Shown piece by piece: positions 965 to 13,952 of a stretch of DNA of 32,893 bases. The first letter of the stretch is position 1, and every line of letters starts with the position of its first letter. Location: assembly GCA_009886125.1 (NCBI GenBank), contig VFJK01000125.1, forward strand, positions 1 through 32,893, in the 5' to 3' direction. The notes under the pieces were generated by a model. The model was not told the origin of the DNA. It worked only from the letters and a program-made list of their open reading frames with translations, and did not search any database. A program made the translations under genes and the position numbers. The stretch is from Geobacter sp. (GTDB taxonomy: Bacteria; Desulfobacterota; Desulfuromonadia; Geobacterales; DSM-12255).

Positions 965-1146
965 CGGCAGTTGGCGGTGTCCTGAAGAAGCGACTTGCCC
1001 GCAATTCGTCGTAATGCTTAGCGAAATGTAACGTCCGCAGTAGATATTGTCTGAACCCGCAGGGTGAGTTTATCTGCTGCAGTGAAATGAGCTTAGCATT
1101 ACAGAATTCGGGCAGTTGGAGCGCCGAAGGGCACCGCCAACTGCCG
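965..1146. repeat. Long imperfect palindrome with 15-bp terminal inverted repeats
   Basis: The ends are perfect inverted repeats: CGGCAGTTGGCGGTG at 965-979 and its reverse complement at 1132-1146. Nested inside are GTAATGCTTAGC (1011-1022) against GCTTAGCATTAC (1091-1102, 11 of 12 paired), GCAGTAGATA (1037-1046) against TATCTGCTGC (1071-1080, 9 of 10 paired), and an apex CCC-GCA-GGG at 1056-1064. All pairs centre near 1056-1060, so one strand could fold into a single extended hairpin. The right arm also has a local alternative hairpin pairing GCAGTTGG near 1112 with CCAACTGC near 1137. It fills most of the gap between two convergent genes and contains no credible ORF. It could be a MITE-like element, a structured RNA or a bidirectional terminator. 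No target-site duplication is obvious. Confidence 0.75.
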
Positions 1147-6460: not shown

Positions 6461-6493
6461 GAACGCTCCGTTCAAAATTCAAAGTTAACTCAC

Positions 6494-6541
6494 CACTCAA
6501 CCACTCAACCACTCAACCACTCAACCACTCAACCACTCAAC
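6494..6541. repeat. Six perfect tandem copies of an 8-bp unit between glmU and glmS
   Basis: The plus strand reads CACTCAAC six times without error (GTTGAGTG in the glmU-glmS sense direction). The array starts 6 nt after the glmU stop and ends 33 nt before the glmS ATG. A degenerate seventh copy (GTGAGTTAAC in sense) adjoins it on the glmS side. Because 8 is not a multiple of 3 and the array is intercistronic, copy-number change would alter spacing or RNA structure rather than protein. Such perfect short tandems are prone to strand slippage. Confidence 0.95.
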
Positions 6542-13834: not shown

Positions 13835-13882
13835 AAAAAACTCCTTATTCCAAGTTGTATTCAAGTTGTCAGTTTCAAACTT

Positions 13883-13903
13883 CCGAGGTTTTTGAAACCT
13901 CGG
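13883..13903. repeat. Short palindromic repeat upstream of the lipoprotein gene
   Basis: CCGAGGTTT (13883-13891) and AAACCTCGG (13895-13903) pair perfectly around a 3-nt loop. A further partial copy, AACCTCGGAGGTTTT, overlaps its right side. It sits between plsY and the lipoprotein gene and resembles dispersed REP-like palindromes found in many genomes; that resemblance is from memory. It may stabilise or terminate the plsY transcript. Confidence 0.7.
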
Positions 13904-13952
13904 AGGTTTTGCCAAGAATAACTGTCATATTGATTGCAAAAACAAATTAATA

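Follow-up and report, generated by a model that had tools for sequence, protein, structure and literature searches.

A probable IS1380-type miniature transposable element with a conserved, modular hairpin core in Geobacter relatives

Introduction

Bacterial miniature inverted-repeat transposable elements (MITEs) are usually seen as decayed insertion sequences that have no content of their own. The IS1380 family of insertion sequences, which includes ISEcp1, has CCT ends and makes 5-bp duplications. The repeat of ISEcp1 is, we presume, CCTAGATTCTACGT, a string that co-occurs with ISEcp1 in excerpts of the literature.

Several small repeated elements have been described from Geobacter and from more distant hosts. 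Chunjie, a MITE of Geobacter uraniireducens, is described in the relevant passages as 178-235 bp long, bounded by terminal and direct repeats, and present in 38 copies, only one of which is not intergenic (PMC10969869). The Coxiella burnetii elements QMITE1 and QMITE2 are MITEs that yield small RNAs; QMITE2 measures 150-190 bp, is located for the most part between genes or in 3′ untranslated regions, and is reported to have inverted once between strains (PMC5896051). Sections of the Geobacter genome papers mention multicopy intergenic families, some of them palindromic and some suggested to be sources of short RNAs (PMC2700814, PMC2996986), and multicopy sequences were likewise noted in P. carbinolicus (PMC3543383).

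Here we describe an element from a Geobacter sp. draft genome (assembly GCA_009886125.1), located in a 32,893-nucleotide stretch of contig VFJK01000125.1, which we refer to in its entirety as the window. Like IS1380-family elements and MITEs in general, it has CCT ends and 5-bp duplications, and its right end, CCTAGATTC, is identical to the first nine bases of the presumed ISEcp1 repeat. Unlike IS1380 elements, it is a MITE with no transposase gene, and it has an RNA-like core that is common to two end types and does not come from the insertion sequence loci that we searched. It resembles Chunjie, by published description only, in occurring in a Geobacter relative, in its size class and in its repeats. 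The likeness to QMITE2 is also by description only, and QMITE2 differs in its host and in its duplications of 7-11 nt; the passages of the QMITE report that we consulted contain no cross-genus covariation or strand test (PMC5896051). Our search of the literature and Rfam found no earlier description of the RNA core, although some copies may have been catalogued, without a mechanism, in alignments that supplement the genome papers on Geobacter and Pelobacter, or in other papers. We consider it quite probable that the element is an IS1380-type MITE that carries a selected, modular structured RNA.

Results and Discussion

The hairpin and the borders of the mobile unit

The original prediction had singled out positions 965-1146 as a 182-bp nested palindrome with perfect 15-bp ends that folds as a single long hairpin, and both parts of that description were borne out. 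When re-read, the arms (965-983 and 1128-1146) are each 19 nt long and 95% complementary, the outer 15 nt being perfect. Folding of the 182 nt gave one long hairpin with an energy of -93.7 kcal/mol (z = -9.8), which was equalled by none of 200 shuffled sequences and was lower than that of any of 354 further plus-strand segments of 182 nt taken at 91-nt steps along the window (runner-up, -76.4); the antisense strand folds more weakly (-82.4 kcal/mol). Based on the complementarity of the arms and the rank of the folding energy, we concluded that the hairpin is real and not a product of chance.

The 965-1146 segment is the hairpin body, and the mobile unit is slightly larger. In the alignment of copies, a constant CCTNAAAA precedes position 965 and AATCYAGG follows position 1146; since this constant sequence lies outside the borders first assigned, we place the window element at 957-1154 of the plus strand (198 bp, CCTGAAAACGGCAGTTGG ... 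rc(CCTAGATTCGGCAGTTGG)). It therefore includes an extra CCTGAAAA on the left and an extra AATCTAGG on the right, with ATAAA repeats outside. Comparison of ends gave a left terminal inverted repeat, CCTGAAAACGGCAGTTGG, at 957-974 on the plus strand and a right one, CCTAGATTCGGCAGTTGG, at 1137-1154 on the minus strand, and the target-site duplications, read directly in the sequence, occupy 952-956 and 1155-1159. There are no open reading frames of at least 60 aa within the element, and scans of positions 850-1250 found neither an intrinsic terminator (a GC stem followed by a T run) nor a promoter-like site.

Copies within and beyond the genome

BLAST of the segment against its own draft genome returned 25 matches including itself, four of the others being full-length at 94-98% identity. 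A covariance model, R1, was built from 25 own-genome copies. It scored the window copy at 184.7 bits, with nothing else in the window matching at E ≤ 10, and gave 41 matches in the genome (150 of the 932 first-look candidates were scored). Of these, 29 are full-length sense copies, one is a partial match of 61 nt (C111), and the other 11 are antisense echoes of these palindromes. R1 also found matches in 11 of the 13 genomes of the family.

A second covariance model, R2, covers the core only, and matched in 29 of the 141 genomes of the order, spanning 13 of its 29 genera; one of these genomes, G050, has only two core matches. Across the class, 34 of 277 genomes matched, but the five outside the order (5/136) are weak and were not counted as members because they share the apical module only. 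A pattern scan of named genomes located 27 stretches, all of them titled Geobacter or Geobacteraceae. Searches of plasmids with the element and of viral contigs with an exact pattern gave no match. (A different repeat, used as a plasmid query, matched 25 records, and the ten that are listed cover only its first ~49 nt.) Judged by these comparisons, the element has spread through the genomes of Geobacter relatives.

Insertion and target-site duplications

Eight loci in relatives were examined for the window site, and six of them were informative (G001, G002, G003, G004, G009, and G010). All six have both neighbouring genes, with their aligned ends 14-81 bp apart, and the site is empty, which identifies the window copy as a recent insertion. 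The upstream neighbour was not found in G005 or G006. The window copy sits at the stop codon of one gene (TAA at 953-955, within the left ATAAA) and faces a convergent gene, and both reading frames are intact.

Among 12 copies chosen for recognisable class-A (window-type) ends, seven have a perfect 5-bp duplication, compared with a mean of 0.75 and a maximum of 5 in 2000 permutations. A second end type, CCTCAATCCGTGAC...GTCACGGATTCAC, is present in G005 to G008, where 7 of the 29 rows tested have perfect duplications (1000 permutations gave 0.48 on average and 3 at most); 14 of the 29 rows have no scorable anchor pair, some carry the first end type, and two of the seven perfect duplications represent one orthologous site. 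The copy at C111 is a 77-bp internal-deletion derivative that has kept both ends and is flanked by ATGAA duplications, with most of the core gone, and a 50-bp remnant is present at C54. In one copy (L009:2170-2259), the right arm has been multiplied in tandem with a 29-bp period (3.1 copies, 98% matches).

The element is thus shorter than 500 bp, multicopy, dispersed and non-coding, with terminal repeats and insertion polymorphism, as is characteristic of MITEs. The original prediction had put forward a MITE as one of two readings of the palindrome, and that reading is strengthened by the copy number, the terminal repeats with their 5-bp duplications, the empty site, and the occurrence of insertion sequences with the same ends in the order.

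IS1380-type ends

At E ≤ 1e-20, an IS1380-family transposase (NF033539) was found in 18 of the order's 141 genomes, in 11 of them above the curated cut-off, and the flanks of 23 IS1380 loci were inspected for ends. Two loci have the end type of the window element, CCTAAAAACGGC..TTG. The first, L264 (G109), has CCTAAAAACGGCAGTTG at both ends; the second, L257 (G110), has the ends CCTAAAAACGGCTATTG and CCTAAAAACGGCGGTTG and a TTTAA duplication; the ends of both match those of the window element, whose left terminal repeat matches the ends of L264. Three other loci carry CCTGAATCCGTGA-type ends, CCTGA[AC]TCCGTGA, which match the sister subfamily with the second end type. They are L211 (G008; the same element as L182), with the ends CCTGACTCCGTGAT and CCTGAATCCGTGAC and an ATATA duplication; L250 (G133), with a GTGAA duplication; and L246 (G066), with a duplication matching at 4/5 positions. 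The ends of the G008 element were recovered with a short-seed scan and missed with a longer seed. The remaining loci have other ends, or none that were found in the flank scan.

Our element has the two marks of one mobilised by IS1380, namely CCT ends and a 5-bp duplication, and is probably a MITE mobilised in trans by IS1380-type transposases. Such a transposase was sought in its own genome (PF13701, NF033539) and in the three remaining genomes of the genus, and none was found. We therefore infer IS1380 mobilisation from the ends rather than from observation. There is no R2 core match in G109 or G110, the hosts of the insertion sequences with matching ends, and none inside the 23 IS1380 loci, where the best match has E = 2.2. 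The end pattern CCTNRAWTCGGCAG, used as a probe for autonomous copies, occurred at 29 places in 9 of 13 genomes (reversed control, 0). Ten of these loci were inspected, in addition to C111, C67, and the known core copies; two are core copies, and the remaining eight lack the core and have a single strict end apiece, with three of the eight showing an extra loose end match that is not partner-like.

A structured core with two loop modules

A core of ~97 nt (1008-1104 in the window, sense strand plus) is common to copies that have unrelated arms and two end types. In the 25 own-genome copies, 29 of the 46 predicted pairs had changed on both sides with pairing kept. We then took 63 of the 103 distinct cores, drawn from ten genomes of the family and from both end types, and found compensatory changes at 21 of 23 pairs. 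The fraction of paired cells was 97.6%, versus 78.9% in shuffled controls and at most 39.1% in slid ones; doubly changed cells numbered 257, versus 64.5 shuffled; and the covariation score was 0.546, versus 0.199 shuffled and at most 0.107 slid. The interior therefore shows extensive compensatory change in excess of both controls, as anticipated by the other reading in the original prediction, that of a structured RNA. The sequence is multicopy, conserved and compensated, and not the solitary, unconserved stretch lacking compensatory changes that would have refuted that prediction.

The invariant and near-invariant positions are mostly in loops, namely GAAATGRAGC opposite GCGNAATGAGC, and YTGTCTGA opposite GAGTT. 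The latter pair corresponds to the apical module of the window copy (1048-1071), in which TGTCTGA, a small stem-loop, and GTGAGTTT form an 8x5-nt internal loop. The modules are separable: the first is retained with a plain tip by copies from G051 and G019, and the second occurs by itself, within a different stem, in hairpin repeats from three further families of the class. The YTGTCTGA..GAGTT module was seen in L266-L270, L272, L273, L275, L276, and L278-L281, several of which adjoin a GCAAA-rich hairpin. A subgroup consisting of L065, L067, and L074 (and L181, by length) is 15 nt longer, with an extra AACRTACACAGRACC on the 3′ side of the apical region.

Rfam gave no match in the window, nor any near gathering score in six and nine further loci. 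A match of MIR1437 on L243 (39.8 bits, against a gathering score of 168) was dismissed as a hairpin look-alike. A kink-turn was considered for the apical loop on account of its tandem G-A steps and was set aside, as the flanking pairs misfit by hand inspection.

We considered the possibility that this is an ordinary MITE in which template switching or cruciform repair matches the arms and sometimes flips the interior, the palindrome being kept at the DNA level with no RNA function. Arm perfection by template switching could yield part of the covariation. Doubly changed pairs are indeed not confined to long branches, since terminal branches shorter than 0.06 hold 21 of them, and one occurs in the young copy L005. 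However, such repair should erase mismatched internal loops, yet it is the loops that hold the most conserved positions.

Strand bias

A preference for G-T over A-C mismatches is expected of an RNA, whereas a DNA palindrome has no reason for one. Changes from Watson-Crick pairs were counted by parsimony in 101 copies, which is approximate on short sequences and uses an alignment fitted to the model, and those to G-U numbered 184 versus 19 to A-C. The same copies contain 327 doubly changed pairs and 114 other pair-breaking changes, 93 of them on terminal branches. In smaller sets, single-step changes gave G-U:A-C ratios of 48:7 and 31:6. This excess on one strand points to selection on the element's own sense strand. 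As repair at the DNA level provides no cause for a one-strand preference of this kind, we think it unlikely that the element is a MITE without RNA function.

By class of neighbour orientation, the terminal-branch G-U:A-C ratios are 38:6, 48:1, 23:4, and 24:6, the first two being for copies sense and antisense, respectively, to both neighbours (with crude gene calls). Since the bias is as strong in the antisense copies, read-through from host genes does not seem to mediate the selection. Constraint on any single copy is not tight, however, as five private substitutions that break stems were counted among the five youngest copies.

The strand bias is as expected if selection acts on an RNA, and would equally fit selection on one DNA strand. 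Hairpin DNA is used by other element families, such as IS200/IS605 and attC, and a single-stranded hairpin of one strand, formed as an intermediate of transposition or replication, could be what is selected, with the same strand-specific tolerance of G-U(T). In contrast, the IS1380-type ends and regular 5-bp duplications indicate the double-stranded cut-and-join to which such features point in DDE transposases. The 77-bp derivative at G000:C111, which has its duplications without most of the core, also argues against selection on such a hairpin, and counts only if the deletion preceded the insertion. On balance, selection on single-stranded DNA strikes us as quite improbable.

Genomic context and candidate inversions in place

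The context of 102 of the 103 distinct copies was analysed; L127 was dropped for its short flank, and two truncated duplicate rows were excluded. Neighbours were called as crude greedy open reading frames, and negative distances reflect over-long frames. Both neighbours are sense to the element in 30 copies and antisense in 30, with 23 copies in divergent and 19 in convergent settings, so there is no orientation preference. A called gene 3′ end lies within 30 nt in 55 of the 102 copies.

Proximity to gene ends in a structured, multicopy element is what might be seen if the core were a host cis-regulatory RNA that had been copied to numerous genes, where it served as a riboswitch, as a terminator or to stabilise mRNA. 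Conservation at some matched sites is also in keeping with this idea: the L235 and L236 elements share 94.6% identity, with one stretch of 127 nt free of any difference, versus 81-84% in the flanks, and the L174 and L128 cores are 96.9% identical, versus 85-87%. At other matched sites, however, the element is less conserved than its flanks (e.g., L136/L138, L174/L140, and L166/L155). The even orientation counts, the equal strand bias in copies antisense to both neighbours, the empty window site in relatives, and the lack of a terminator-like site at the window copy all speak against it as well. A role in host cis-regulation or termination, rejected on the orientation counts and the terminator scan, is in our estimation very unlikely. 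L235, L236, and the reversed copy L233 lie between the same two flanking genes in three genomes; by eye, these appear ABC-transporter-like.

There are 17 pairs of copies in which both neighbours match. Thirteen were compared, the four around L118 and L138 being excluded as ambiguous, with two adjacent elements, and two additional pairs brought the orientation comparisons to 15. Ten pairs keep their orientation (three of them representing one locus), and five are reversed relative to the flanks. The flanks are 95-97% identical in L166/L155 and L168/L158, 88-91% in L233/L235, and 91-95% in L136/L138:3565, where the element is only 64% identical; in L123/L105, the flanks are 62-67% identical and the copies may be independent insertions. 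As the genomes with reversed copies are mostly draft assemblies, single inversions are candidates. Probably, the long arms let the interior invert in place. Reversal between conserved flanks, as in L166/L155 and L168/L158, is also what DNA-level template switching or cruciform repair would produce.

A model for the element

Our preferred reading remains that of an IS1380-type MITE with a selected RNA. Under this model, an IS1380-type transposase from elsewhere would cut and join the ends, giving the 5-bp target duplications. Between the ends would lie a structured RNA, folded as a long hairpin in which two internal-loop modules are conserved, and kept by one-strand selection across two end types, many versions of the arms, and several genera. 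The element itself, or else active source copies, would be transcribed into this RNA, which might be bound by a protein and aid the element's persistence or spread.

A bolder version is that this is an undescribed family of mobile structured RNAs with two separable loop modules, at least two IS1380 end types, free swapping of arms, and inversion in place, selected at the RNA level because its transcript promotes spread or acts in trans in the host. We advance this version tentatively, as a possibility that falls short of our main proposal.

In this MITE, the content is the most conserved part and outlasts the arms as well as the end type. It thus becomes possible to test whether a bacterial transposon that is not autonomous can be a mobile non-coding RNA, and to ask which protein would read the two loop modules. 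The element also provides a defined RNA family, to which our Rfam searches gave no match, and natural candidates for in-place inversion.

Other repeats in the window

Two other repeats were observed in the window. At 6488-6541, ACTCAACC is repeated in tandem some seven times (97% matches), just upstream of a minus-strand gene that looks glmS-like by eye. At 13873-13910, an 18-bp unit, TTTCAAACCTCCGAGGTT, is present in two tandem copies with 85% matches.
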